From contig JAIXZW010000012.1 in assembly GCA_027489375.1 (NCBI GenBank), positions 1-64,000 of the forward strand: a DNA stretch of 64,000 bases. Direction: 5' to 3'. Made by a program: the position numbers and the translations under genes. This document shows, piece by piece, positions 26,576-42,883 of this stretch. The stretch comes from Paracoccaceae bacterium. Lineage in GTDB: Bacteria; Pseudomonadota; Alphaproteobacteria; Rhodobacterales; Rhodobacteraceae. The notes below the pieces were generated by a model, which ran no database searches, was not told the origin of the DNA, and worked only from the letters and a program-made list of their open reading frames with translations. Each line of letters opens with the position of its first letter. The stretch's first letter is position 1.

Positions 26576-29500
26576 TCAATGCGCCTCGACAGGTTCCTCG
26601 GCAGGCTTCGCCATCTCGGCCCGCGAGATCAGGGTGTAGAAGGCGGGCACGACGAAAAGCGTGAAGATCGTCCCCACGGTGATCCCCGAAAAGATCACCA
26701 GCCCCACCGAATAGCGCGCCGCAGCCCCTGCGCCGCTGGCGATGATCAGCGGGATCACCCCCAGCGCCATCGCGGCGGTCGTCATCAGGATCGGGCGCAG
26801 ACGCACCTTTGCCGCCGCGACAATCGCCTCGCGCCGCGACAGCCCGCGCGTCCGCCGCGCCTGATTGGCGAACTCCACCAGAAGGATGCCGTGCTTGGTG
26901 ATCAGCCCGATCAGCGTGATCAGCCCCACCTGCGTATAGATGTTCAGCGTGCCAAGGCCGAGGTTCAGCGGAACGATGGCGCCAAAGATCGACAGCGGCA
27001 CCGACATCAGGATGATGAAGGGGTCGCGGAAGCTTTCGAACTGCGCGGCCAGCACCAGATAGATCACCACGATGGCCGCCGCAAAGGCGAGCAGGATCGT
27101 ATTGCCCTCGGTCACTTCAAGCCGTGACTGGCCGGAATAGTCGATGAAGAACCCGTCCGGCAGCAGGGGCCGCGCCGTATCGACCAGCGTCTGCAACCCG
27201 TCCCCCGTCGACACGCCCGGAATCGGCAAGGCCGAAAGGGTGGTGGAGTTGAGCTGGTTGAACTGTTCGATGGCGCTTGGGGCCACGCCGGTATCGACGG
27301 TAATGACCGCCGAAAGCGGTACCATCTCGCCCGTGGCGGAGCGGATGTAGAAATCGCCCAGGCGTTCGGGATTGTCACGATACTCTTGCGGCACTTGAAG
27401 AATGACGTCGTAGCTGTTGGAATCACGGTCGAATTGCGCAACCGCGCCCCCGCCCACCAAAAGCCCGAGAGTGCGCCCGATGTCGGAAGCCGGAAGGTTC
27501 AATGCCGCCGCGCGGTCGCGGTCGATCTTCACCGTCACCTGCGGCGCGTTATAGGCAAGCGAGTTCTGCACGATGATGAACTTGCCCGATGCCTGCGCCT
27601 TGGCCTTGATCTCTTCGGCCACCTCGAAGATGCGTTCCGAAGGGCCGGTGGATTGCAGGACCATGCTGATCGGCAACCCGCCGCCAGCCCCGGGCAAAGA
27701 GGGCGGGGCGAAGACGAAGGCCTGCACGCCCGCAATCGGGCCGATCCGCGCTTGCAGGTCCTGCTGGATTTCCGCCTGCGACCGGTCACGCTCGGCCCAA
27801 TCCTTGAACGCCCAGAGCGCGATGCCCGAATTGGTCGCCCCCCCGAAGCCGACGATAGAGAAGTTAGCCGAAAGCTCGGGCAAATCCTTCGTCAGCTCGC
27901 GCATCTGGTCGATGTAGGTGCGGGTGTATTCGCTCGTCGCATAGGGCGGCGCGTTGACGAAGGAAAAGAGGGCACCCGAATCCTCTTCCGGCGCAAGTTC
28001 GGTCGAGGTCTTGAGGAACAGGTAGCCTGTCAGCGACACCAGCACCGCCACCATCAGGAAAGTCACAGGCCGGTAATCGAGGCTCGACGAAACCCGCCGC
28101 TCGTACCAGCCCGCCAGACGGTCAAAGGTGCGGTCCACCGCAAGCTGGAAGCCCGACCCATGCCCCGATTTGAGCACCCGCGCGGCCATCATCGGCGTAA
28201 TCGTCACGGCGACGATGCCCGAAATGATCACCGACCCCGCAAGCGTCACGGCGAATTCGCGGAACAGCGATCCGGTCAACCCGCCGGTAAAGGCAAGCGG
28301 CGCGAAGACGGCGGCAAGCGTGACCGTCATGGCGACGATGGCCCCGAAAATCTCCTTCATCGACAGGAAAGCCGCCTGGATCGGGCGGAACCCTTCCTCG
28401 ATATGGCGGTGGATGTTCTCGACCACGACGATGGCGTCATCGACCACCAGACCGATGGCGAGCACCATCGCGAGCAGCGACAGAAGGTTGATCGAATAGC
28501 CGAAGATGAACAGCACGAACAGAACCCCCGTCAGCGACAGGGGGATCGTGACGATGGGCATCAGAACCGACCGGAAAGAGCCGAGGAACAGCAGGATGAT
28601 GATCACGACGATGGTGACGGCCTCGGCAATCGTCTTGAACACCTCGTCGATCGAGGCGCTGATCTGTTCCGTGCTGTCATACATCATCGTAAGCGACATG
28701 CCGTCCGGCAGGCCGCTCTGTATGGACGGCAGTGCCTTGATCACTTCTGCCGACATATCCAGCGGGTTCGCCCCCGGCGTGGGGAAAATGCCGATGAAGG
28801 TGCCGGGCTGGCCGTTGAAATTCACGATGATGTCCGAAGACTTCGCTTCGAGCGAGACGCGCGCCACATCGCCCAGTCGCACCACCTCGTCCCCCGTGGC
28901 CCGCACGGGCAGGGCGGCAAAGGCTTCGGGGGTTTGCAGTGTGGATTGCAGCGTGACCGCATAGGCCACGAAGTCGTTTTCCGTCTTCCCCGGTGCGGAC
29001 AGGAAGTTCGACGCGTTGATCGCGGCCAGCACCTCGGCCGCGGTCACGCCGCGCCCTGCCAGTTTCACGGGGTCGATCCAGACGCGCATGGCGTAATCGG
29101 CGGCCCCGATCACCTGGATCTCGGCCACGCCGGGAATGGTGGACATGCGGGGGCGGATCACGCGCTGGATGTATTCGGTGATCTGCTCGGCGGTCATGTT
29201 GGGGTTCTGCATCGCCAGATACATCGTGGCGAAGTTCATCCCCGTGCCCTTCACGATGGTCGGATCCTCGGCTTCGGCGGGCAGTTGGCTGCGGACCTGC
29301 TGCACCTTTGACATCACCTCGGTCAGCGCCACATCGGGGTTCGCCCCCAGCCGCATGTTCACCGTCACCACCGAAGCGGATGGCCGCGAGGTCGAGGTGA
29401 CGTAATCCACATTCTCGGTCGTAGCCACCGCCGCCGCGATGGGCGAGGTGATGAAGCCCTGGATCAGTTCGGGCGCGGCACCGGCATAGACCGTGGTGAT

Positions 29501-29638
29501 GGTGATGACGGTTTCGTCCACCTTGGGATATTGCCGGATCGACAGCGAATTCAGACCCTGAAACCCCAGAAGCAGGATCAGAAGGCCGAGCACCGTCGAC
29601 AGCACGGGCCGTTTGATGAAAATGTCCGAAGGGCTCAT
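26576..29638 (-). CDS. RND-family efflux transporter permease
   Basis: 1020 aa, AcrB/MexF-like; FIKRPVLSTVLGLLILLLGFQGLNSLSIRQYPKVDETVITI; GLVVDDAIVVVENI. Confidence 0.93.
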   Translation of the reverse strand: MSPSDIFIKRPVLSTVLGLLILLLGFQGLNSLSIRQYPKVDETVITITTVYAGAAPELIQGFITSPIAAAVATTENVDYVTSTSRPSASVVTVNMRLGANPDVALTEVMSKVQQVRSQLPAEAEDPTIVKGTGMNFATMYLAMQNPNMTAEQITEYIQRVIRPRMSTIPGVAEIQVIGAADYAMRVWIDPVKLAGRGVTAAEVLAAINASNFLSAPGKTENDFVAYAVTLQSTLQTPEAFAALPVRATGDEVVRLGDVARVSLEAKSSDIIVNFNGQPGTFIGIFPTPGANPLDMSAEVIKALPSIQSGLPDGMSLTMMYDSTEQISASIDEVFKTIAEAVTIVVIIILLFLGSFRSVLMPIVTIPLSLTGVLFVLFIFGYSINLLSLLAMVLAIGLVVDDAIVVVENIHRHIEEGFRPIQAAFLSMKEIFGAIVAMTVTLAAVFAPLAFTGGLTGSLFREFAVTLAGSVIISGIVAVTITPMMAARVLKSGHGSGFQLAVDRTFDRLAGWYERRVSSSLDYRPVTFLMVAVLVSLTGYLFLKTSTELAPEEDSGALFSFVNAPPYATSEYTRTYIDQMRELTKDLPELSANFSIVGFGGATNSGIALWAFKDWAERDRSQAEIQQDLQARIGPIAGVQAFVFAPPSLPGAGGGLPISMVLQSTGPSERIFEVAEEIKAKAQASGKFIIVQNSLAYNAPQVTVKIDRDRAAALNLPASDIGRTLGLLVGGGAVAQFDRDSNSYDVILQVPQEYRDNPERLGDFYIRSATGEMVPLSAVITVDTGVAPSAIEQFNQLNSTTLSALPIPGVSTGDGLQTLVDTARPLLPDGFFIDYSGQSRLEVTEGNTILLAFAAAIVVIYLVLAAQFESFRDPFIILMSVPLSIFGAIVPLNLGLGTLNIYTQVGLITLIGLITKHGILLVEFANQARRTRGLSRREAIVAAAKVRLRPILMTTAAMALGVIPLIIASGAGAAARYSVGLVIFSGITVGTIFTLFVVPAFYTLISRAEMAKPAEEPVEAH

Positions 29639-30780
29639 TCCGTGGCCCCCACTGCATCGCCCGTGGCTTTTGCCGCGGGGTTCACGCTGTTGTCCACCAC
29701 GGCGGGCTGTCCGTTCGACAGCCGGTTCTGACCCGCCGTCACCACCTGATCGCCCGCAGCGACGCCCGTGACCACCTCGACCAGCCCGCCCGAACGGCGG
29801 CCCGTCTGCACGAAGACTTGCCGGACCTCGAGCGCCGGCGCCTCGCCTTCAGCCGGTGCGGGCGCATCCTCCTTGGGGCGCACCACATAGACGTAATCGC
29901 CGTAGAGGCTTGCGCTCACCGCGGTCTGGGGCAGGGCGATCACCCCGTCCTCGGTCGGCAATTCGACCTTGATCCGCACGAACTGGCCCGGCGTCAGCTT
30001 TGCGCCCGCATTGGCGACCGACCCCCGCAACGCGACAAGACGCGTCGCGGGATCGACACGCGGATCTATTCCCGTCAACGCGCCGGCAAAAGCCTCGTCC
30101 AGCCCTTCGATCCGCACCGATATCTTCTGGCCCACGGCCAGTTTCGGCAAATCCTGTTCCGGCAGGTTGAAATCGACCCGCATGGAGGAAAGGTCCTGCA
30201 ACGTCGCAACCACCGTGCCCGGCGTCACATATTGCCCGACATCCACGCGCGCGATGCCTACGGTGCCGCCAAAGGGGGCCGAAACCACCCGTTGCGCCAG
30301 CACCGCCTCGGCCCGGGCAAGCTGCGCCTTTGCCGCCTCTGCCGCCGCCTCCGTCTGCTCGCGCGAGGCGTTCGTGGCCGCGCCCCGCTGCGACAGTTCC
30401 GACGTGCGCTTCAGGCTCGTCTCGGCAAGCCCGGCCTGCGTGCGCGCCGCTTCCACATCGGCCCGTTCCACCACGTCATCCAGACGCAGCAATTCGTCAC
30501 CGGCCTTCACCTCGCTGTTGGCGGTGAAGCCGATTTCCTTGACCACCCCTGCCGTTTCGGTCGTCAGGTCGACACCCTTGGCCGCGTTCACGGTGCCGAT
30601 GGCTTCGATCACCGGCGTCCATGTCACGGGTTTTGCCTCGATGGTGGACACCGTCGCCGCCTGTTGCGGCATATTGGCAAAGATCTGCGCGATCATGTTG
30701 TCGCGGAACAGGTTGAACCCGACCAGTCCCCCTCCGACCAGACCAAGCAACAGAACGGCAATGACCAGACGCTTGACCAT
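29635..30780 (-). CDS. RND efflux periplasmic adaptor (HlyD/MFP)
   Basis: 381 aa; single N-terminal TM; VVSAPFGGTVGIARVDVGQYVTPGT. Confidence 0.92.
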   Translation of the reverse strand: MVKRLVIAVLLLGLVGGGLVGFNLFRDNMIAQIFANMPQQAATVSTIEAKPVTWTPVIEAIGTVNAAKGVDLTTETAGVVKEIGFTANSEVKAGDELLRLDDVVERADVEAARTQAGLAETSLKRTSELSQRGAATNASREQTEAAAEAAKAQLARAEAVLAQRVVSAPFGGTVGIARVDVGQYVTPGTVVATLQDLSSMRVDFNLPEQDLPKLAVGQKISVRIEGLDEAFAGALTGIDPRVDPATRLVALRGSVANAGAKLTPGQFVRIKVELPTEDGVIALPQTAVSASLYGDYVYVVRPKEDAPAPAEGEAPALEVRQVFVQTGRRSGGLVEVVTGVAAGDQVVTAGQNRLSNGQPAVVDNSVNPAAKATGDAVGATE

Positions 30781-30893: not shown

Positions 30894-31289
30894 CTAGCCC
30901 AGAGGCACGATCCGCTCGACCGTGACGGTCCCCGCGCGCCGCAGGAAACCGGGGGTCAGATATTGCAGCGGCATGGCCAGAGTCACCTTCCGGTAGGGGC
31001 GTTGCCCGATGGTCACGCTGGTCAGGGTAAGGGTCATCCGGTCGAACCCCAGCGTCGGAAAGGCGGTCTGGATGCGTTGCGCCACCTGTGTCTCGGACGC
31101 GGCCTTGTCCAGAAACAGCGTCCGCGCCGCCACATCGGCGGCATGGGCCAAGCGCCCCTGCAAGTCGAAGTTGCGGCCAAAGTCGATCAGTCCCATGCAC
31201 ATCACAACGAAGACCGCGCTGACGATGGCGAATTCCACCGCGGCGGCCCCGCGGGTTTCGCGCAGGAAGTTGCTGACGGGGCGTCTCAT
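30894..31289 (-). CDS. TadE-like pseudopilin
   Basis: 131 aa; FLRETRGAAAVEFAIVSAVFVVMCMGLIDFGR. Confidence 0.82.
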   Translation of the reverse strand: MRRPVSNFLRETRGAAAVEFAIVSAVFVVMCMGLIDFGRNFDLQGRLAHAADVAARTLFLDKAASETQVAQRIQTAFPTLGFDRMTLTLTSVTIGQRPYRKVTLAMPLQYLTPGFLRRAGTVTVERIVPLG

Positions 31290-31735
31290 CTGACCTGCAC
31301 CTGCAGGACGGGCGCAAGGTCGAAGCGCGGGAACAGGATGCCGTCGAAGCGCAGCGCCGCCGTCATGCGGTAGAAGGTCAGCGTCGGCAGGTTTCCGGTG
31401 CAGATCGTTCCACATGAGGTTCCCGATGCGGGCGAATTCGGACAGGCGCAGAACTTCTGCGCACCGAGCGTGATCTGCCCCGCCCCCGTCCCTTGCGTGA
31501 AATCCTCCGAAGCCGCCGCCTGCATCACGGAAAGCACCACGTCGCTGCCCGCATCCGCCATTGCGGATTGCGCGCCCGACCGCAGCACATGGTCCACCGC
31601 TTCGCGCACCGAAAGAACACCGCTCAGGTCGATCGCGGCCAGCAGCATCATCAGCAGCGTCGGCGCAAGCAGCGCGAATTCCATCGCCGCCACCCCGGAC
31701 GTGTCGCGCAGGAACCGCCCGACCAAACCGCGCAT
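31286..31735 (-). CDS. TadE-like pseudopilin
   Basis: 149 aa; FLRDTSGVAAMEFALLAPTLLMMLLAAIDLSG. Confidence 0.82.
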   Translation of the reverse strand: MRGLVGRFLRDTSGVAAMEFALLAPTLLMMLLAAIDLSGVLSVREAVDHVLRSGAQSAMADAGSDVVLSVMQAAASEDFTQGTGAGQITLGAQKFCACPNSPASGTSCGTICTGNLPTLTFYRMTAALRFDGILFPRFDLAPVLQVQVR

Positions 31736-31738
31736 CGC

Positions 31739-33028
31739 TCAGGCCCGCCGGAACAGACGTTGCAAGAGCGGCTTCTGCGCGGGTTTCACCGCAGTCGCCC
31801 GCGCCGCCGGTCCGGCCAAAGCGCGCACAAGCGGCTGCAAGGCCGATGCCGCCGACCGCCCCGCACGCGTCGCCACATGGACGCGGCCAAGGTTGGCCGA
31901 ATGCGAGAACCCCTTGGCATCGAAATGCACCACGGCGGCCAGTCCGATTCCCAGCGTCTGGGCAAAGTCCTTCGCGCTGATTTCTGTCCGCTTCGACTGC
32001 CCGACCTTGTTCAGCACCACGAGCGGCATGCCGTCATCCGGCCGCAAGGTGGCAATCAGATCGAGAAGTTTCCGGCAATTCTTCAATCCGGCAAGGTCCG
32101 GCGTCGCGGTCAGCACCACGCGGTCCGCGGCAAGCAGTGCCCGCCGCGTTGCCGGATGGCCGATCGCAGGCAGGTCCAGCACGACCCTTTGCCCCCCACT
32201 CCGTGCAAGGTCGGTCAGATGGTCGAGCGCTTCGGGTGCAGGGGCGTCGGAAAGGCCCGCCGCCTCGGTCGCCACCAGCACCCGCAAATGCGCGTCATAG
32301 GTGTCGAACAGACCGTCGAGCAACTGGCCGTCAAGGTTCTGCCCCGCCCGGAACGCCTCGGCGATGCCGCGCGCGCCGTCCAGCGCCAGCGAAAGCCCCG
32401 CCGTTCCGAAATCGAGGTCGAGGTCGATCAATCCGGTCGGCCCGTGCCCCTCGTCACCCCGACCCATCAGCCATGCCGTGTTCAGCGCCACGGTCGACGA
32501 CCCCGCCCCGCCGGATGCCCCGATGAATGCCGTGACCTGACCTTTGGCCGCGGCCCCCGATCCGCTCGCCACATCCGACAGGCTTTGCAGGATATGCGCC
32601 GCCGCCACGGGCCGCGGCAGGTAATCCGACACTCCGCGCCCGATCAATGCACGGTAAAGCGCGATGTCGTTCTCGCCGCCGACCAGCAAAAGCCGCGTGT
32701 CGGGATCGCAAAGCTCGGACAGCGCATCCAGCCCTTCCAGCAAGGCGTCCTGTGCCAGCGAGGTTTCGATGAGCAGCACATGCGGCGCCTGCGCATTGGC
32801 AAAGGCGGACAGAGCCGCTTGCAGTCCGCCACCGGTCTGCGACAGCCGCACCCGCCCGAACTGGCGGCTCCGCCCGAGCGTTTCGACCAGCGCCGCCAGT
32901 TCCGGCGTCTCGGTGAACACGGCGAGTTCCAACGCGGGCAGTGGCGGCACGGGCTGCGAGAAAAGTCCGGCCACCTCGGGCAGCGTGGCAGCGGGCGGCC
33001 GGGCGAAATCGGTCAGATGCAGCGTCAT
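31739..33028 (-). CDS. cpaE: CpaE/TadZ-like ATPase of the Tad pilus system
   Basis: 429 aa; N-terminal receiver-like region, GASGGAGSSTVALNTAWLM deviant Walker A, VLNKVGQ. Confidence 0.87.
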   Translation of the reverse strand: MTLHLTDFARPPAATLPEVAGLFSQPVPPLPALELAVFTETPELAALVETLGRSRQFGRVRLSQTGGGLQAALSAFANAQAPHVLLIETSLAQDALLEGLDALSELCDPDTRLLLVGGENDIALYRALIGRGVSDYLPRPVAAAHILQSLSDVASGSGAAAKGQVTAFIGASGGAGSSTVALNTAWLMGRGDEGHGPTGLIDLDLDFGTAGLSLALDGARGIAEAFRAGQNLDGQLLDGLFDTYDAHLRVLVATEAAGLSDAPAPEALDHLTDLARSGGQRVVLDLPAIGHPATRRALLAADRVVLTATPDLAGLKNCRKLLDLIATLRPDDGMPLVVLNKVGQSKRTEISAKDFAQTLGIGLAAVVHFDAKGFSHSANLGRVHVATRAGRSAASALQPLVRALAGPAARATAVKPAQKPLLQRLFRRA

Positions 33029-33052
33029 GGTCAGATATCCATCCGTCTCGGA

Positions 33053-33877
33053 TCAATTCACGTCATAGGTCGCAACCACGCCGCCACGCATCACGCGCAC
33101 GGTTCTGGGTTGCGGCTGGGGGGCGGCTTCGGCAGGGGCGGCGGCCGCGGGTTCTTCCGCGCCAAGCGCCACGATGGCCTCGTCCTGGCTGGCCCGCAGC
33201 ACGAGCGACAGCTTTCCGGCCGCTTCGGCCGCCACGATCCGCTCGGCATCGCCGGGCGACAGTTCCAGCGTCGCGGTCTTGCCCACGACGGCGCTCTTGT
33301 CGGGGTCGGTGCCCGATTGGTCGATGGCGAGCACGCGCACGTTTTGCAGGATCGTCCGCACCGCCACGCCATCGGCGCAGGAACCGGCGTTCTGGCAACT
33401 CGTGACCAGCAGCACGTCCACGTGGTTGTTGGGGAGGATGAAACCGCCAGCCGTCCGTTCGGCCGAAACCGGGATCGCCACCGCCCGCATCCCCGGGGTC
33501 AACACGCCCGACAGGAACCCGTTCGACGTATCGCCCACCTGATCGTCAAGCACCGGCGTGCCTGCCCGCAGCGGCATGCGCAACAACGTTCCGGCAAGTT
33601 CCGCAGGCGCCGTCGGGCGCGAGGAGTAGCGGATGAAAGAAGCGTTCGCCGCCTCGGCGGGCCACACCTGCCAGCGCATATCCTCGGCCCGCAGGGCTTG
33701 CCCGGCCGGAAGGTCGACCGCCGCCACCAGAACCTCGACCGTCGCCATCGCGGCGGTCTTGTCGGTATTGCTGTCGGCATTCGCCTCGGTCGGTTGCACC
33801 GCCTCGACAAGCCAGGCCGCAGTCACGCCTGCGGCAAGGGCGATGGAAAGTAGGATCACGCGCAGCATGAGAGGCAT
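33053..33877 (-). CDS. cpaB: Tad pilus assembly protein CpaB/RcpC
   Basis: 274 aa; VLVAAVDLPAGQALRAEDMRWQVWP (SAF), FILPNNHVDVLLV. Confidence 0.88.
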   Translation of the reverse strand: MPLMLRVILLSIALAAGVTAAWLVEAVQPTEANADSNTDKTAAMATVEVLVAAVDLPAGQALRAEDMRWQVWPAEAANASFIRYSSRPTAPAELAGTLLRMPLRAGTPVLDDQVGDTSNGFLSGVLTPGMRAVAIPVSAERTAGGFILPNNHVDVLLVTSCQNAGSCADGVAVRTILQNVRVLAIDQSGTDPDKSAVVGKTATLELSPGDAERIVAAEAAGKLSLVLRASQDEAIVALGAEEPAAAAPAEAAPQPQPRTVRVMRGGVVATYDVN

Positions 33878-33902
33878 CCTTTGGCTAAACGGCAAGCGGG
33901 CA

Positions 33903-34445
33903 TCAAAGCAGGCCCAGCCACTGGGTACGGGGAAGCACGGCCACCGCCCCGATGGCGATGGCGAGGGCATAGGGAAGGTCCGAGCGCACGGCCTCGGCCG
34001 CGCCTGCGGCACGGTTCGGCCAAAGCAGCGGATGGGGCAGGGGATTGGGCAAAAGCCGCAACACCGTAACCAGAAGCGCAAGCCCGCCACCTGCCAGCAT
34101 CGTCGCCATGAGGAAGGGCAGCACCGCGCCCGCTCCAAGCCAGAGCGCCGAAACGGTCAGCAGCTTGCTGTCTCCCGCGCCCATCCAGCCCATCGCATAG
34201 GCCGCAACCGTTGCAAAGAACACCATCGCCGCCGCGCCCGTGTTCAAAGCCATGTCGCGGGGCGCAAGTCCGGCCGCGGGGGCAAGCAGTCCCCAGCCGA
34301 CAAGCAGCGTGACGACAAGCGCATTGGGAATGGTCAGGGTGCGCAGGTCGCGGACCGCCGCATAGCCCAATGCACCAAGGAACAGCGCCGCCGCAGCCAG
34401 TGCAGCGGCTTTCTCGGTATCGGGCAGGAAGGAGTGAATGTCCAT
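33903..34445 (-). CDS. cpaA: Type IV prepilin peptidase CpaA/TadV
   Basis: 180 aa from MDIHSFLPDTEKAAAL; AAVRDLRTLTIPNAL and GAGDSKLLT (GxGDxK) motifs. Confidence 0.9.
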   Translation of the reverse strand: MDIHSFLPDTEKAAALAAAALFLGALGYAAVRDLRTLTIPNALVVTLLVGWGLLAPAAGLAPRDMALNTGAAAMVFFATVAAYAMGWMGAGDSKLLTVSALWLGAGAVLPFLMATMLAGGGLALLVTVLRLLPNPLPHPLLWPNRAAGAAEAVRSDLPYALAIAIGAVAVLPRTQWLGLL

Positions 34446-34464
34446 CACGGGCGTCCTTGGTGTC

Positions 34465-34526
34465 GCGCCCCTTTTGTCTCGCGGGGCGCTTTCATCGCTG
34501 TGCGGGGCAGTCATCCGGCCCCGCAC
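34465..34526. promoter_or_regulatory. Two tandem hairpins between flp and cpaA
   Basis: GTGCGGGGC-N9-GCCCCGCAC (34500-34526) and GCGCCCC-N11-GGGGCGC (34465-34489). Confidence 0.55.
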
Positions 34527-34551: not shown

Positions 34552-34728
34552 TTACTGGGTCGCGCCGCCCAGAGCGGTGGCGATGGAATCGAAGGTCGAG
34601 GTCAGGTTGGAACCCATCGTGGTGATGGCGGTGATGATCACGACCGAGACGAGCGCGGCGATGAGGCCGTATTCGATCGCGGTGGCACCCGATTCCGATT
34701 TCACGAAACGCGAGACGAGGTTTTTCAT
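34552..34728 (-). CDS. flp: Flp/Fap-type major pilin
   Basis: 58 aa; MKNLVSRFVKSESGATAIEYGLIAALVSVVIITAITTMG, with G/A cleavage and E+5/Y+6. Confidence 0.95.
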   Translation of the reverse strand: MKNLVSRFVKSESGATAIEYGLIAALVSVVIITAITTMGSNLTSTFDSIATALGGATQ

Positions 34729-34879
34729 GGTCTTGATCCCTTGGTGGTCCGGGCCTCTTGCCCGGGATTGCTTCGGTTTCGGCCAGTCGCCTTGTGGTCT
34801 GTCCGATGGGATGAAGATCGTCTTTTTCCGCCTGTCGCACCATTCGGGCGGGTGCTTTAGGCCATCGCCGCCGGGCATA

Positions 34880-34895
34880 TAGGCCATTTGGCCTA
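34880..34895. promoter_or_regulatory. Palindrome TAGGCCATTTGGCCTA upstream of flp
   Basis: 7-bp perfect arms; related half-motif TAGGCCATCGCCG at 34858; 13/16 match to 38100-38115. Confidence 0.65.
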
Positions 34896-34995
34896 GGTGC
34901 GCGTTTGGTGCGATAAATAATTTATTTTCAAACACTTAAACTCCATCCAAAAGGATGTCGTGCACACCTTTCGGTCAGCCGCGGGATGGGTGTTG

Positions 34996-37002
34996 TCAGA
35001 CCTTCGATACGCGTGCCAGAAGCGCGGGCAACAGCGCCTCGGCGTTTGCCGCCTCGCGGGCCAGAAGGGTGCGGGCCTGGGTCAGGTCGGCGCCCGCGTC
35101 GATGGCCTCTTCCAGCGCAAGCGCGGCCTCGGCCAAGGCGGGCAGGCCAAGCTGCCCCGCGTCCGAAACCAGCCGGTGCGCCTTGATGCGGAGTGCGGAC
35201 GGCTCCGTCTCGTCTGCCACCCAGTCGAAATCGCGCAGCGCCGCCCGCAACCGCGCCTGAACCCAGTCACCGCCCAGAAGCGCCGCCAACTCCGCCAACG
35301 CGCCCTCGGCCGACGGACCCGTCGCCGTCGGCGGGGACAGGGCGGCTGCATCCGTGGCATCGGCTGCCGCGACCATCGCCTCGACCGTCGCGGTCAGATC
35401 GTCCAGCGCAAAAGGCTTTGCCAGATGCCGCCCTGCACCGGCCCGCGCCATCGCCGCCACCTGATCGGGCAGGGCATTGGCCGAAAGCGCCAGCACCGGC
35501 ACCTTGCCCGCCGCGCCGGACAGGGCGCGGATGGCGGCGGTCGCCGCGATGCCGTCCATCCGCGGCATCTGCATATCCATGATCACCAGATCGTAAGCGC
35601 CACTCCGCGCCGCTTCCAACCCTTCGATCCCGTCCATCGCCCGCGTGCAGCGGTGCCCCGCCCGCTCCAGCACCGCGCCGATGAGATCCTGGTTCTGGAC
35701 ACTGTCCTCGACCACCAAAACCCGCGCGGCCCCCCGTGCCGGGCGCGCCGCGCCGCGCACCCCTGCGGGGGCCGGATCGTCCGCCGCTTCCGCCGCCTCG
35801 ACCAGCGGGAGGATGACCGTGAAACGGCTGCCCTCGCCATAGGTGCTCTCGACACCGATCTCGCCGCCCATCCGTTCCACCAGACCGCGGCTGATCGCCA
35901 GTCCAAGCCCGCTTCCCGCATGGGCGCGGGTCAGCGAACTGTCGATCTGGCTGAAACGCTTGAACAGGCGCGGCACGTCGGCGGGCGCAATCCCTATTCC
36001 GGTATCGCTCACCGCAAGCGACAGACGCCCTTCATCCCGTGTCACCGAGAGCGAGACGCCGCCCTTTCCGGTGAACTTCACCGCGTTGTTGGTCAGGTTC
36101 AGCAAGACCTGCAAAAGACGCCCCGTGTCACCCTGCACGAAACGCGGCACGTCCGGCGAGATGCTGCACCCCAGCGCCAAGCCCTTCGCCGCCGCCGTTG
36201 GCCGGACCAGTGCGATCACCCGCTCGGCAAGGGCGCGCAGATCGACGGCATCGCGGTGCAGGTCGATCCGCCCCGCCTCGATCTTCGCAAGATCGAGGAT
36301 GTCGTCGATCAGCACTCCCAGAACCTCTCCCGCATCGCGCAATTTGCCCAATTCGTCGCGCTGCCGCACATCGAGCGGGCCGGAGCCGAGCAATTCGGCA
36401 TAGCCCTTGATCGCGGTCAGGGGGGTGCGGATCTCGTGGCTCATCGTGGCAAGGAAATCGGATTTCGCGGCATTCGCCGCTTCCGCATCCGCGCGGGCGC
36501 GGCGCAACTGCGCCTCGGTGCGGTCCCGTGCCGACAGATAGGCCAGACTGCGCAGCACGACCGTGAACAGAAGAACCACGATCGAGGCGAGCGAGACCGA
36601 CAGCGAATGCGACAGATCGGCGCTCGCCTCGCCCCACAGCGTGACCAGACCGTCACGCCGTGCGGCTTCCGTCGCGGCAAGTTCCGCGACGCGCAAGGCC
36701 CGATCCTCTGCCGCGCCGGACCGAAGCCTTTCGACCGCCTCCGCATCGGCCCCTTCGGTCGCCGCCACCGCCGCCACCGCCTCTGCAAAGGCCACCTTGT
36801 CCGACACCACCGTCCCGGCACGCGCCAAGGCATCGGCCCTTTGCGCGCTTTCCGCGATCTGCGTGCGGAGCGAGGCCGACAAATCCCCGAAACGGTAGAT
36901 TTCAAGGGCGGAATAGGTGGTGAAAAGCCCGACGGCCGAGACCGAAACGATGATCAGGCGCAGCCCGTCGACGCGCAAACCGCCAGTCGGGCGGCGGCGC
37001 AT
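34996..37002 (-). CDS. Hybrid sensor histidine kinase (TM - HisKA - HATPase - REC - Hpt)
   Basis: 668 aa; FLATMSHEIRTPLTAIKGYAELL H-box, DTGIGIAPADVPRLFKRF, VLVVEDSVQNQDLIG REC, C-terminal IKAHRLVSDAGQLGLPAL Hpt-like. Confidence 0.9.
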   Translation of the reverse strand: MRRRPTGGLRVDGLRLIIVSVSAVGLFTTYSALEIYRFGDLSASLRTQIAESAQRADALARAGTVVSDKVAFAEAVAAVAATEGADAEAVERLRSGAAEDRALRVAELAATEAARRDGLVTLWGEASADLSHSLSVSLASIVVLLFTVVLRSLAYLSARDRTEAQLRRARADAEAANAAKSDFLATMSHEIRTPLTAIKGYAELLGSGPLDVRQRDELGKLRDAGEVLGVLIDDILDLAKIEAGRIDLHRDAVDLRALAERVIALVRPTAAAKGLALGCSISPDVPRFVQGDTGRLLQVLLNLTNNAVKFTGKGGVSLSVTRDEGRLSLAVSDTGIGIAPADVPRLFKRFSQIDSSLTRAHAGSGLGLAISRGLVERMGGEIGVESTYGEGSRFTVILPLVEAAEAADDPAPAGVRGAARPARGAARVLVVEDSVQNQDLIGAVLERAGHRCTRAMDGIEGLEAARSGAYDLVIMDMQMPRMDGIAATAAIRALSGAAGKVPVLALSANALPDQVAAMARAGAGRHLAKPFALDDLTATVEAMVAAADATDAAALSPPTATGPSAEGALAELAALLGGDWVQARLRAALRDFDWVADETEPSALRIKAHRLVSDAGQLGLPALAEAALALEEAIDAGADLTQARTLLAREAANAEALLPALLARVSKV

Positions 37003-37003
37003 C

Positions 37004-37810
37004 TCAGGCTCCGATCAGCCGGGTTCCCGCCACGGCGGCCGCGGCGCGGTTGGCAACGCCAAGTTTGGCGAACAGCGCCGCCATGTGCACCTTGACCGTC
37101 CCCGCGCCAAGGTTCAGCTCGCGCGCGATTTCCTTGTTCGACTTGCCGCGCACCAGCATTTCCAGCACCCGCGACTGGCGCGGCGAAAGGGCCGGCCCTT
37201 CGGGCTGCGGCTGCGCTTCGGCTGCGGCCGAAACCGCACGGGACGGGGCAGGGGGTTGCACGGCGGGCTGCGCCGGCGCGATTTCGGCGATCAGGCGCGG
37301 AACATAGATCCGCCCGTCGAGGATTTGCCCCAGCGCATCCGAAAGTTCCTGCACGCCCGATGCCTTGCATACATAACCATGCGCACCGGCGGACAGCGTC
37401 TCGATGATATCCTCGCGCCGGCGCGACGCCGACACCACGGCGACCTTCTCAAGATGGTCGCAGGTCTCGCGCAGATGGTGCAGCAGGGCCGGACCCTCCA
37501 TCCCGGGCATGTTGAGGTCGAACAGCGCCAGCGTGACGTGGTCTTCGGCTTCGATTGCGGCGATTGCCTCTTCGTAGCTGCCGGTCTGGATCACGCGGGC
37601 AAAGTCGCAGCGCTGGGTCAGCACCGCCGCCAGTGCCATGCGGAAGAATTCGTCATCATCCGCAACCACCGCCACGCGCAGGGCAGGCTTGGCCATCGGG
37701 CGCAGCATATGCGCTGCAAAGGCTGCATTAGCGCTCATGCTACGGATGTGCATCTGATCCATTCGGCCCTCCATCCGGCACCGGCGATACTTTGTCCGCC
37801 GTGTCGTCAC
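37004..37810 (-). CDS. NarL/LuxR-family response regulator
   Basis: REC (VAVVADDDEFFRMAL...LALFDLNMPGMEG) and HTH (LSPRQSRVLEMLVRGKSNKEIARELNLGAGTVKVHMAALFAKLGVANRAAA); start uncertain (possibly 37762 or 37738). Confidence 0.9.
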   Translation of the reverse strand: MTTRRTKYRRCRMEGRMDQMHIRSMSANAAFAAHMLRPMAKPALRVAVVADDDEFFRMALAAVLTQRCDFARVIQTGSYEEAIAAIEAEDHVTLALFDLNMPGMEGPALLHHLRETCDHLEKVAVVSASRRREDIIETLSAGAHGYVCKASGVQELSDALGQILDGRIYVPRLIAEIAPAQPAVQPPAPSRAVSAAAEAQPQPEGPALSPRQSRVLEMLVRGKSNKEIARELNLGAGTVKVHMAALFAKLGVANRAAAAVAGTRLIGA

Positions 37811-38099
37811 CGTGAGTAATTAACTATTTTTTAGTCCCGTAAAGCGCTTCCCGCCCGAAACCATCCCGACGATGAAGCCACCCATCCGTTGGTCTGCGGG
37901 CTGTGGCCTTCGTTCCGGTGGGAATGTGGCGCGCTTCGCCATCGGCCTTCCCCGATTTCGCCCCGCTTCGCCCCTCGGCCGTCGCATTCCTGCAGGTTGT
38001 GCGGCAATTGCCGGACTGGCCTCCTGGGTGATTCGCCGCATTTTCGCGCCGCATGTCCGCCTTGCCTTCGTCAATCCCGCCCATCTGCATCCCCCGGAT

Positions 38100-38115
38100 T
38101 AGGCCATCAGGCCGA
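38100..38115. promoter_or_regulatory. Motif TAGGCCATCAGGCCGA upstream of cpaF, matching the flp palindrome
   Basis: 13/16 identical to 34880-34895; 94 bp upstream of the cpaF start. Confidence 0.6.
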
Positions 38116-38208
38116 ATGTCGCCCCCTGCTTGCAAGGCGTATTCCCTCTCCTTGCGCCGCAGTCACTTTTTTGCGGTGCCATCGCCAGACCAGCTTTCAG
38201 GGATTGCC

Positions 38209-39618
38209 ATGTTCGGTAAACGCCAGCGCCTGCCCGAGGTCCACCCCAAGCCGCAAGCGGCATCGCAGCCGCCTGTCCGGCCCGCTTCGCGGCCTGCGGG
38301 CGCGGCCGAACCCGTGGCCCCGCAGCGTGCGCAGGAATTCGACGGTCTGCGCAAGGCGGTCTTCGACGCGCTGATCGACACGATCGACATGAAGCGCGTG
38401 GGCCAGCAGGACAGCGAGATCGCAAGGCGCGAGATCGGTCTGCTCGTCGCCGAAATCCTGACCGCGAAAAAGGCGGTGATGACGGCGGCCGAGCAAGAGG
38501 TCCTGCTGACCGACCTTCTCAACGACATTCTCGGCTATGGCCCGCTCGAGCCGCTCCTTGCCCGCGACGACATCGCCGACATCATGGTGAACGGTTGCCG
38601 CCCCATCATGATCGAGGTCGGCGGCAAGATGGTCGAAACCGACATCCGCTTCCGCGACGAGACCCAGCTTCTGAACATCTGCCAGCGCATCGTGTCGCAG
38701 GTGGGTCGTCGCGTCGATGAATCCTCGCCCATCTGCGACGCCCGCCTTCAGGACGGAAGCCGCGTCAACGTCATCGCGCCGCCCCTGTCCATCGACGGCA
38801 CCACGCTGACCATCCGTAAATTCAAGAAGGACAAGCTGACGCTCGACCAGCTCGTCCGCTTCGGTTCGATCACGCCCGAAGGCGCTGAAATCCTGCGGAT
38901 CATCGGGCGTGTGCGCTGCAACGTGCTCATCTCGGGCGGAACGGGGTCGGGCAAGACGACGCTGTTGAACTGCATGACCCGCTCCATCGACGCCACCGAA
39001 CGCATCGTCACCTGCGAGGACGCTGCCGAACTGCAACTGCAACAGCCCCATGTCGTCCGCCTCGAAACCCGTCCGAAGAACCTAGAGGGCGAAGGCGAGG
39101 TGACGATGCGTGACCTCGTGAAGAACTGCCTCCGCATGCGTCCCGAACGCATCATCGTCGGCGAAGTCCGGGGGGCCGAAGCGATCGACTTGTTGCAGGC
39201 CATGAACACCGGCCATGACGGTTCCATGGGGACGGTCCACGCCAACAGCCCGCGGGAAGCGCTCTCGCGTCTGGAAACCATGATCACGATGGGCGGCTCC
39301 ACCCTTCCCGCCCGCACCTTGCGCGAGATGATCTCCAAATCCATCGACGTGGTGGTGCAGGCGGCGCGCCTGCGCGATGGCAGCCGCAAGATCACCCATA
39401 TCTCCGAAGTGCTCGGGATGGAGGGCGACGTGATCGTCACCCAAGACCTCTTCATCTACGACATCGAAGGCGAGGATGCGAACGGCCATATCATCGGTCG
39501 CCACCGCGCCACCGGCGTCATGCGCCCCGGCTTCTGGGACCGCGCCCGTTACTTCGGCGAAGCGAAGAACCTGACCGCCGCGCTCGAGGCTGCGGCCAAG
39601 ACGACAGGGGGGCTGTGA
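38209..39618 (+). CDS. cpaF: Tad secretion ATPase CpaF/TadA
   Basis: 469 aa from MFGKRQRLPEVH; ISGGTGSGKTTLLNCM Walker A; MNTGHDGSMGTVHANSPREALSRLE. Confidence 0.95.
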   Translation: MFGKRQRLPEVHPKPQAASQPPVRPASRPAGAAEPVAPQRAQEFDGLRKAVFDALIDTIDMKRVGQQDSEIARREIGLLVAEILTAKKAVMTAAEQEVLLTDLLNDILGYGPLEPLLARDDIADIMVNGCRPIMIEVGGKMVETDIRFRDETQLLNICQRIVSQVGRRVDESSPICDARLQDGSRVNVIAPPLSIDGTTLTIRKFKKDKLTLDQLVRFGSITPEGAEILRIIGRVRCNVLISGGTGSGKTTLLNCMTRSIDATERIVTCEDAAELQLQQPHVVRLETRPKNLEGEGEVTMRDLVKNCLRMRPERIIVGEVRGAEAIDLLQAMNTGHDGSMGTVHANSPREALSRLETMITMGGSTLPARTLREMISKSIDVVVQAARLRDGSRKITHISEVLGMEGDVIVTQDLFIYDIEGEDANGHIIGRHRATGVMRPGFWDRARYFGEAKNLTAALEAAAKTTGGL

Positions 39619-40613
39619 TGCAGGTCTCGCTGCTACAGGTTGCGATCTTCTGCTTCGTCACCGTCGGCCTTGCCGCGCTCGTCCTCGGCTGGGCGACACC
39701 CTCCGATGCGGTGCGGCTCAGGGAGCGGATCGACCGCCTCGGCAAACGCGCCGAGGATGACCCGCTCGACGGTCAGGCGACCGAAGACCTCCGCCGCAAG
39801 CGCCGCGTGCGTGAATCCCTGCGCGAGTTGCGCGCCCGCGAGATCGGTCGCGCCCGCCGCCGCGCCAAGCCCACACTGACGGGCCGGTTGCGGCAGGCCG
39901 GTCTGGAATGGTCACGCAAGCAATATTACACCGGCTCCTTGCTTCTGGGGCTCGGTGTGCTGATCCTTGCGCTCGGCCTTGCGCGCCTCGCCTTGCTTCC
40001 GGCGCTGGGTTTCGCCACCGCGACGGGGCTGATACTGCCGCACCTTTTCGTTGCCAGGAAGCGGTCCGCCCGTCTGAAGAAATTCTCCGAGGACTTCCCC
40101 ACCGCCATCGACATCATCGTCCGCGGCGTCCGCTCGGGGATGGCATTGGCGGACGGACTCAAGACAATCGCCGCAGAAATGGAAGAACCCGTCCGCGGCG
40201 AATTCGCCGCCGTGGTCCGCGACCAGACCTTCGGCGTCCCGCTGGACGAGGCGGTGCAACGCCTCGCCGACCGCGTCCCGCTGTCGGAGACGTCGTTCTT
40301 CGCCATCGTCGTCGGCATCCAGTCCAAGACGGGTGGCAACCTGTCCGAAGCGCTGTCCAACCTTTCCCGCGTGATACGGGGGCGCAAGCACATCGCGGGC
40401 AAGATCAGGGCGATGAGCTCCGAGGCGATCACCTCTGCCGCGATCATCGGCGCGATGCCGCCCCTCGTGATGCTCGTCCTCTATTTCATCAGCCCCGGCT
40501 ACCTTGGCGTCCTCTTCACCACATTGCTCGGCAACATGATCCTCGGTGCCTCGGTCCTCTGGATGGGCATCGGCATTCTCGTCATGCGCGGCATGATCCG
40601 TTTCGATTACTGA
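39618..40613 (+). CDS. tadB: TadB-like pilus assembly inner membrane protein
   Basis: 331 aa; T2SSF pattern FPTAIDIIVRGVRSGMALADGLKTIA. Confidence 0.9.
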   Translation: MQVSLLQVAIFCFVTVGLAALVLGWATPSDAVRLRERIDRLGKRAEDDPLDGQATEDLRRKRRVRESLRELRAREIGRARRRAKPTLTGRLRQAGLEWSRKQYYTGSLLLGLGVLILALGLARLALLPALGFATATGLILPHLFVARKRSARLKKFSEDFPTAIDIIVRGVRSGMALADGLKTIAAEMEEPVRGEFAAVVRDQTFGVPLDEAVQRLADRVPLSETSFFAIVVGIQSKTGGNLSEALSNLSRVIRGRKHIAGKIRAMSSEAITSAAIIGAMPPLVMLVLYFISPGYLGVLFTTLLGNMILGASVLWMGIGILVMRGMIRFDY

Positions 40614-40626
40614 CAAGGGGGGCACC

Positions 40627-41562
40627 ATGACCTTCGGCACCATCGCAACCAATCCCGCAGCGCTCTTGTCCTTCGTCTCGGTCACGGCGGCGGTCTGCGC
40701 CATCGTCTTGCCGCAGCTCGGACGGGACCGCCTCGCCATCCGTCTGGCACAGGTCGCGGGCGAGGCAGAAGCCCGCCACACCCGCGGGGCCGATGCGCGC
40801 GACCGGCGCGGCCTTCCCGCGCTCTACGAGGCGCTTGCCAACCGGTTCGAGATCCTCCGCAGCCTGCCGGGGGGCGATGCGGCCCGCAAGCTGCAGATGG
40901 CGGGAATGCGCGGCTCCTCGGCGCTTGCCACCTATCTTTCCTTGCGATTTCTCGGCGCGGTGGCGCTGGGACCGATCACCTTCTTCTATCTCGAATTCAT
41001 CCTCAAACTCGACCAGCCGCTTCCCGTTCTGCTGCTGATGGGCCTTGCCGGAAGCGTGGTCGGCTTCCTGATGCCGGCCATCCTTCTGAAGAACCGCATC
41101 ATCAAACGCCAGCAGGCGATCCAGCGGGCCTGGCCCAATGCGCTCGACCTCATGCTCATCTGCGTCGAATCCGGCATGGGAATCGACCAGGCCCTGCGCA
41201 AGGTGGCAGACGAGATCGGCCTCGATTCCGTCGATCTGGCCGAAGAGATCATGCTGACCGTATCGGAACTTTCCTACCTTCCCGACCGCCGCATGGCCTT
41301 TGAAAACCTTGCGGCGCGGACGGGTCTCGATGCGGTCAAGGCGGTGATCGCCTCGCTCAAACAGGCGGAACGGCACGGCACCTCGCTCGGTGCCTCGCTC
41401 CGCGTCCTCAGTCAGGAAAACCGCGACATCCGCCTTCAGGCCGCCGAGAAGAAGGCGGCTGCCCTGCCGCCCAAGCTTACCGTGCCCATGATCCTTTTCT
41501 TCCTGCCCGTGCTTTTCGCCGTGATCATCGCCCCCGCGATGATGCAGGTCTTCGGACCCTGA
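40627..41562 (+). CDS. tadC: TadC-like pilus assembly inner membrane protein
   Basis: 311 aa; T2SSF pattern WPNALDLMLICVESGMGIDQALRKVADEI. Confidence 0.9.
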   Translation: MTFGTIATNPAALLSFVSVTAAVCAIVLPQLGRDRLAIRLAQVAGEAEARHTRGADARDRRGLPALYEALANRFEILRSLPGGDAARKLQMAGMRGSSALATYLSLRFLGAVALGPITFFYLEFILKLDQPLPVLLLMGLAGSVVGFLMPAILLKNRIIKRQQAIQRAWPNALDLMLICVESGMGIDQALRKVADEIGLDSVDLAEEIMLTVSELSYLPDRRMAFENLAARTGLDAVKAVIASLKQAERHGTSLGASLRVLSQENRDIRLQAAEKKAAALPPKLTVPMILFFLPVLFAVIIAPAMMQVFGP

Positions 41563-41569
41563 GGTCGCC

Positions 41570-42883
41570 ATGTCCCTTTTCGCCCATATCGCCGCCGCCT
41601 TCCGCCGTTACGGATCGGACCGGCGCGGCAGCGTCATAACCCTCGCCGCGATCCTGTTTCCCGTGGTGATCGGGGGCCTCGGTCTCTGGGTCGAAACCGG
41701 CTACTGGTATCACATGCAACGGCGCGTCCAGCACATCGCCGATGTCTCGGCCCATGCCGCCGGCGTGCGCATCCGCGCCGGCGACTCCAAGGCGCAAGCC
41801 ACCGCCGCTGCCCGCTACATCGCAACGCAAGCAGGATTTCCCGCCACGGCCAGCCTGACCGTCAACATCCCGCCGCTTGCCGGGGCGCGAAAGGGCAATC
41901 CCAACGCGATCGAGGTCATCCTGTCGGAAAACCACAACCGCTGGTTCACCGCCCTGTTCGCCGGGGGGCAGGTCGCCCTGGCCGGTCGCGCCGTGACAGT
42001 GATCGAAGGCGATGCGACCGCCTGCATGCTGGCCCTGTCCGGCTCGGCCAGCGGCGCGGTCACGGTCAGCGGATCGACAGCCGTGTCGCTGACGGGCTGC
42101 GACATCGCCTCGAATTCGGTGGCCGCCAATTCCTACGCGATGGGCGGGCTGGGTGCATCCATATCCACGGGCTGCATCCATACGGTGGGCGGGGCTTCCG
42201 TCACCACGGGCCTCACGCTCACCAACTGCGCCGCCGTAAAGACGAACGCGGCCCGCGCCCGGGACCCCTATGCCGACCTGCCCGAACCGGCCATCGTCGG
42301 CAATTGCGTCAGCAAGACGGTCGGCAACAACAAATACCCGACCACGCTTACGCCCACCGATGTCCACCCGCTTGGGGGCGGACTGAAATCCATGCGCTTC
42401 TGCAACGGCTTCGACTTGCGCGGCGAGGTGACGCTGATGCCCGGCCTTTACATCATCGAAGGCGGCGGCCTTTCGGTGAACGGCGGCAGCCTTACCTCCA
42501 CCACTGCGGCCAAGCTTGTCGGGCACGGCGTGACGTTCTATCTCGCCGCGCCGACGGTCGAGATGCGCCTGAACGGCAACGTCACGCTCGACCTTTCCGC
42601 CCCGACCTCCGGCCCGCTGTCCGGCATCCTGTTCTTCGGAACCCGCAGCGCGACCTCGGCCAGCCACATCATCAACGGCTCGTCGGGTTCGGTGATGCAG
42701 GGCGCGATCTATGTACCTGCCTCGGCCATCCAGTATTCCGGCGATTCCGCAGGGACAAACGGCTGCACGCAGGTCATCGCCTCGACCATAACCCTGACGG
42801 GAAACTCGGCGTTGAAAGCCACCTGTGCCTCGGCCGGAACCCGCGACCTTTGGGCATCCGAGACTGTCCGTCTTTTCGAGTGA
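41570..42883 (+). CDS. TadG-like pilus-associated protein
   Basis: 437 aa; DRRGSVITLAAILFPVVIGGLGLWVETGYWYHMQRRVQHIADVSAHAA; long Gly/Ser/Thr-rich C-terminal region. Confidence 0.85.
   Translation: MSLFAHIAAAFRRYGSDRRGSVITLAAILFPVVIGGLGLWVETGYWYHMQRRVQHIADVSAHAAGVRIRAGDSKAQATAAARYIATQAGFPATASLTVNIPPLAGARKGNPNAIEVILSENHNRWFTALFAGGQVALAGRAVTVIEGDATACMLALSGSASGAVTVSGSTAVSLTGCDIASNSVAANSYAMGGLGASISTGCIHTVGGASVTTGLTLTNCAAVKTNAARARDPYADLPEPAIVGNCVSKTVGNNKYPTTLTPTDVHPLGGGLKSMRFCNGFDLRGEVTLMPGLYIIEGGGLSVNGGSLTSTTAAKLVGHGVTFYLAAPTVEMRLNGNVTLDLSAPTSGPLSGILFFGTRSATSASHIINGSSGSVMQGAIYVPASAIQYSGDSAGTNGCTQVIASTITLTGNSALKATCASAGTRDLWASETVRLFE

Follow-up and report, generated by a model that had tools for sequence, protein, structure and literature searches.

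Tandem inverted repeats upstream of Tad pilus operons as candidate operators of a linked NarL-type response regulator in Alphaproteobacteria

In the Paracoccaceae DNA analysed here, a stretch of 64,000 nucleotides referred to as the window, two divergent Tad operons flank the genes of a two-component system. This arrangement raises the question whether similar palindromes upstream of both operons are binding sites of the regulator encoded between them. The leftward operon starts on the minus strand with the pilin gene flp (34552-34728, PF04964) and continues at 30894-34526 with genes for a prepilin peptidase, CpaB, a CpaE/TadZ-like protein and two TadE-like proteins. No secretin was found among the scanned ORFs of this operon. 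The rightward operon (38209-42883, plus strand) comprises cpaF, tadB, tadC and a TadG-like gene. Domain matches confirmed that the intervening genes, both on the minus strand, code for a hybrid histidine kinase and a LuxR-type regulator, as the initial annotation had stated. The kinase (34996-37002) has the architecture HisKA-HATPase-REC followed by a C-terminal Hpt-like domain, the latter matched with an E value of 0.0011 in the window and of 3e-5 in a relative. The NarL/LuxR-type response regulator, the proposed binder, occupies 37004-37774, with its start at 37774 or at a GTG at 37810. An RND efflux operon (26576-30780) follows the leftward Tad operon and is found in the same place in both related genomes. 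Several regulator-linked Tad clusters (window, 30894-34526; L214, 1090-7306; L083; L289) seem to be without a CpaC/RcpA secretin gene between cpaB and cpaE, which matches what is reported for flp-2 of Sinorhizobium meliloti.

Both palindromes were located as initially annotated. TAGGCCATTTGGCCTA (34880-34895) lies 152 bp 5' of the flp start codon (ATG at 34728, minus strand) and TAGGCCATCAGGCCGA (38100-38115) 94 bp 5' of the cpaF start codon (ATG at 38209, plus strand); the recomputed distances and the identity of 13 of 16 positions between the two agree with the earlier values. The half-motif TAGGCCATCGCCG (34858-34870, plus strand) starts at 34858 as described, but it does not stand alone, since it adjoins a degenerate second copy of the site, TAAAGCACCCGCCCGAAT (34842-34859, minus strand), with an overlap of 2 bp. 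Its minus-strand core TGGCCTAAAG is kept in three genomes of the genus. Read towards flp on the minus strand, the upstream region thus presents a candidate site 1, TAGGCCA-AA-TGGCCTA, and 36 bp downstream, in the same register as in relatives, a candidate site 2, whose score of 16.5 compared with 22-25 for good copies makes it the weaker assignment. The palindrome before cpaF is of the site 2 type (TAGGCCATCAGGCCGAAT, 38100-38117, plus strand).

The motif is infrequent across the genome. In the whole 3.89-Mb genome, exact matches to TAGGCCATNNGGCCNA were restricted to the two reported palindromes, and the nine one-mismatch matches examined all fell within long ORFs according to a crude gene calling. 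With up to two mismatches, six places were observed in the window versus 1.56 expected. Single 16-mers nevertheless arise at random: the exact palindrome is present in 16 other genomes of the family, in none of them at a Tad gene, and the copies in genomes G001 and G077 lie inside ORFs, the latter 65 kb away from that genome's own regulator gene.

The regulator combines a REC domain (PF00072, 2.9e-17) with a GerE/LuxR helix-turn-helix domain (PF00196, 4e-19). In the alignment, D86 and K137 are invariant and D39 and D41 nearly so, which accounts for the phosphoacceptor aspartate, the acidic pocket and the lysine. NarL is the nearest solved structure (1a04; DNA-binding domain 1je8). CrbR/ErdR was among the best family matches and is a near relative by family score, with 97.6 bits for the ErdR/CrbR family NF041830, below its curated score of 390 bits. 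A recognition helix GTVK[VI]HMAA[LI]F is common to most Tad-linked regulators; the two linked regulators with KFH helices (L066, L013) have degenerate sites, which is suggestive for two cases only. The regulator carries alanine in place of lysine at a residue aligned with a DNA-contact position of NarL. A class-wide search retrieved mostly paralogues below approximately 200 bits that are not linked to Tad genes, and these served as negative controls.

Within the genus, the regulator is encoded in three of 19 genomes, the window's genome included; another of these is Gemmobacter straminiformis. All three have both the flp and the cpaF site. Upstream of cpaF, a 25-bp block, CCGGATTAGGCCATCAGGCCGAATG, which encloses the palindrome, is invariant while the flanking DNA has diverged. 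In the flp upstream region, conservation covers the palindrome and also a block that lies 20-36 bp downstream of it. In a sample of 150 Rhodobacteraceae genomes, the closest relatives of flp were found only in the same three genomes as the regulator, an indication that the pilus cluster and its regulator are transferred jointly.

Relatives of the regulator with 42-56% identity were found in Microvirga, a Rhodospirillales MAG, a Hyphomicrobiales MAG, Salipiger and a Loktanella MAG, and many of them adjoin Tad genes. Footprinting showed the motif to be conserved at related loci as far as other orders, and the flp upstream regions beyond the genus revealed a tandem structure. Site 1 has the consensus TAGGCCR-TT-YGGCCKA, inverted heptamers with NarL-like 7-2-7 spacing over 16 bp. 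Site 2, with the consensus TAGGCCATCAGGCYGAAT, follows 33-36 bp past site 1 and abuts a predicted -35 element; in the promoters of Sinorhizobium and Microvirga it ends at, and not within, the predicted -35. The information content amounted to 22 bits for site 1 (25 sites) and 26 bits for site 2 (26 sites), both hand-collected. At the sequence level the candidate operator is an inverted repeat of the 7-2-7 type looked for with NarL/FixJ regulators. As judged from sequence, the same regulator and candidate site recur at Tad promoters in several alphaproteobacterial orders. A further regulator copy not assigned to a Tad cluster was seen in Microvirga vignae, with tandem sites before its own gene and one site before an ORF of 901 amino acids (L070, 1098-1113 and 4184-4235), hinting at autoregulation and further targets.

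All 53,248 inverted repeats having 6-bp arms and a spacer between 0 and 12 bp were scored on upstream regions from genomes that do not belong to the window's genus. Since the set contains the loci in which the tandem was first recognized, this enumeration is unbiased as to the motif and not blind as to the loci. TAGGCC-N4-GGCCTA ranked first upstream of flp (13 of 18 regions with at most two mismatches, compared with 0.22 for the mean dyad), first upstream of cpaF (11/18, tied with the close variant TCGGCC), first upstream of the regulator gene, there in a minority of regions (7/49), and first overall (31 of 85 regions; mean dyad 1.04, s.d. 1.20). Chance, or an unselected common ancestry of intergenic DNA, could account for stray 16-mers such as those away from Tad genes, but it is contradicted by this first rank in other genera and orders and by the blind tests. 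Conserved islands amid diverged flanks and a tandem spacing kept across orders argue in the same direction, and we regard this explanation as practically negligible. An equally minute probability is assigned to an RNA hairpin, a terminator or a recombination or methylation site. The palindromic, GGCC-rich sequence would suit such an element; site 2, however, is asymmetric with its GAAT tail and is not followed by a T-run, the sites keep a constant place with respect to promoters and to each other, and the copies are nearly confined to Tad promoters and one che promoter.

The motif tracks the regulator gene. The dyad, with at most two mismatches, was present in 19 of 28 flp upstream regions of regulator-positive genomes versus one of 21 in regulator-negative genomes; the contrast (Fisher p 5e-6) is indicative only, as the genomes are related. 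The tandem pattern had six matches in the 12 genomes holding a regulator homologue, all six upstream of flp and two of them unforeseen, on contigs other than that of the query regulator. The 397 other genomes of the order gave no match, nor did the reversed control. In Microvirga, all five tandem matches were in regulator-bearing genomes, and two of these matches precede cpaF. Of 16 loci in Microvirga that contain both regulator and cpaF, 15 reached a site 2 score of at least 21 (the exception is L199), compared with none of 37 loci around paralogous regulators. Eight of those Microvirga loci have a copy in front of flp and another in front of cpaF, repeating the pattern of the window in another family. 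No clear flp site was seen in the regulator-positive genome G550, although flp is near the regulator gene, nor in G977, G996 and G957, for which linkage between flp and the regulator was not established. The regulator is rare. Where its gene adjoins a Tad cluster, flp is nearly always preceded by the motif, and cpaF often is as well. The sites, their tandem order, their spacing and their co-occurrence with the regulator are all read from the sequence.

Sinorhizobium served as a blind test. The weights of the site 2 score had been set by eye on alignments without Sinorhizobium prior to any inspection of that genus, and searching plasmids at the protein level retrieved the regulator with approximately 50% identity. 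On pSymA of S. meliloti, the neighbours of the regulator gene are the flp-2 Tad cluster and an operon for accessory chemotaxis; a two-component system is encoded beside tad genes here as well as at the window locus and in relatives. The flp-2 promoters of S. meliloti, S. fredii NGR234 and strain K101 all carried sites, and in pSymA-type plasmids the divergent cpaA2/tadG region did too. At flp-2, CTATAT follows 22 bp after the GAAT end of site 2; the gene is not mentioned in the main text of a study of transcription start sites in S. meliloti (PMC3616915). Another site 2 copy on pSymA (L285, 14692-14709) is located in the interval that separates the regulator gene from cheR, a gene of the accessory chemotaxis operon, which suggests a co-regulation of pili and that chemosensory system. 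Contrary to prediction, the detached secretin locus of S. meliloti (Locus 3) contained no site and is therefore unlikely to be targeted directly. In Sinorhizobium, the gene preceding that of the regulator did not match the hybrid kinase, which leaves room for a different input. The annotation of this gene (L285, 10580-13795) is that of a PAS protein, and on visual inspection its C-terminal part appears EAL-like; a link to cyclic-di-GMP is possible.

Taken from sequence evidence, the palindromes are very likely operators to which the linked NarL-type regulator would bind directly, probably for class II activation. Our confidence is high for the operator, somewhat lower for the identity of its binder and lower again for the sign of regulation; binding, activation rather than repression, the phosphorelay and a signal feeding it are what we infer. 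A phosphorylated regulator dimer would occupy each inverted repeat of 16-18 bp, with its TAGGCCA/TGGCCTA heptamers 2 bp apart. At flp-type promoters with two sites, the downstream one (about -53 to -36) would end with GAAT at the -35 region. From this site 2 the regulator would most likely contact RNA polymerase, with a second dimer bound upstream. In the window's genome the linked hybrid kinase, with its His-Asp-His relay, is the likely phosphate donor. As a result, the pilin (flp operon) and the motor and platform (cpaF operon) may be switched jointly.

The layout of the sites has precedents. The binding sites of Escherichia coli NarL consist of inverted heptamers with 2 bp between them, TACCCCTAAAGGGGTA (PMC4549865). 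The candidate site 1 has the same 16-bp 7-2-7 layout with TA ends, whereas the heptamer TAGGCCA and the target genes differ; with NarL as the nearest structure, this geometry fits a NarL-type binder. CrbR/ErdR recognizes a single inverted repeat, TACTACCATCGTCGAAT (the ACTU motif), at -52 to -36 directly before an RpoD promoter (PMC5715377). Its repeat ends with GAAT like site 2 and has the same predicted place before the promoter, whereas the motif itself, the acetate genes and the gammaproteobacterial hosts differ, and the accessible text reports no tandem site. Together, the NarL-like layout and the CrbR-like end and predicted position of site 2 make class II activation the best guess. Alternatively, the regulator might bind and repress, or alternate between repression and activation. 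The sign is not readable from sequence, and no good -10 is evident in the window. Yet in Sinorhizobium and Microvirga, site 2 is at the edge of the predicted -35, the place of a class II activator as described for CrbR (PMC5715377), and a repressor site would more often overlap the -10 or +1 region. We consider this alternative rather unlikely.

True operators could also belong to another transcription factor, the linked regulator merely travelling with the Tad cluster. Transfer as one block could explain the co-occurrence, given that flp relatives and regulator share the same three of 150 family genomes. This is difficult to reconcile with the sites also present before some regulator genes, with a site geometry that is that of NarL-type proteins (PMC4549865) and with the helix shared by most linked regulators next to the KFH-helix pair with degenerate sites. 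CtrA, which controls pilA in Caulobacter (PMC11264516), is comparable as a transcriptional regulator of an alphaproteobacterial Tad pilin and differs in being of the OmpR type. The CtrA site TTAA-N7-TTAA was absent from the window, and control by CtrA via a full site was rejected for this DNA. A foreign binder is thus judged very unlikely, and the linked regulator remains our preferred candidate.

That Tad genes can be controlled by a two-component system encoded next to them is already known from PprAB (PMC3510237) and from Pectobacterium (PMC3767616). In Pseudomonas aeruginosa, the regulator of the two-component system PprA-PprB controls the flp-tad-rcp genes (PMC3510237, PMC6821963). LuxR-type control of Tad is likewise established with PprB. 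The reported PprB recognition sequence, GGCTAATAC (PMC6821963), had no exact match in the window and two matches with one mismatch, neither of them upstream of flp or cpaF; a PprB-type site at the flp promoter was therefore rejected. In Pectobacterium, the adjacent system ECA0785-ECA0786 is needed for flp/tad expression; its regulator is of the OmpR type, and the accessible text describes no site (PMC3767616). For the present regulator/operator pair, no report was found in the open-access literature covered, and there the pair appears undescribed.

More tentatively, and with somewhat less than even confidence, regulator and operator can be read as a mobile module that in several alphaproteobacterial orders marks a class of Tad clusters without an in-cluster secretin gene. 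Operator and targets would stay constant, while the upstream partner would be swapped between lineages, being the hybrid kinase in the Gemmobacter group and, in Sinorhizobium, a system of the chemotaxis type next to a PAS/EAL-like gene. If this holds true, pilus production in Sinorhizobium would be coupled to a chemosensory array not used for flagella. The switch of the Tad pilus is known for few bacteria, and a specific operator and regulator are proposed here for a group of alphaproteobacterial Tad clusters. This group includes the alfalfa symbiont S. meliloti, whose pilus switch had been unknown and in which the sites at flp-2, at cpaA2/tadG and at the che operon predict a common control.
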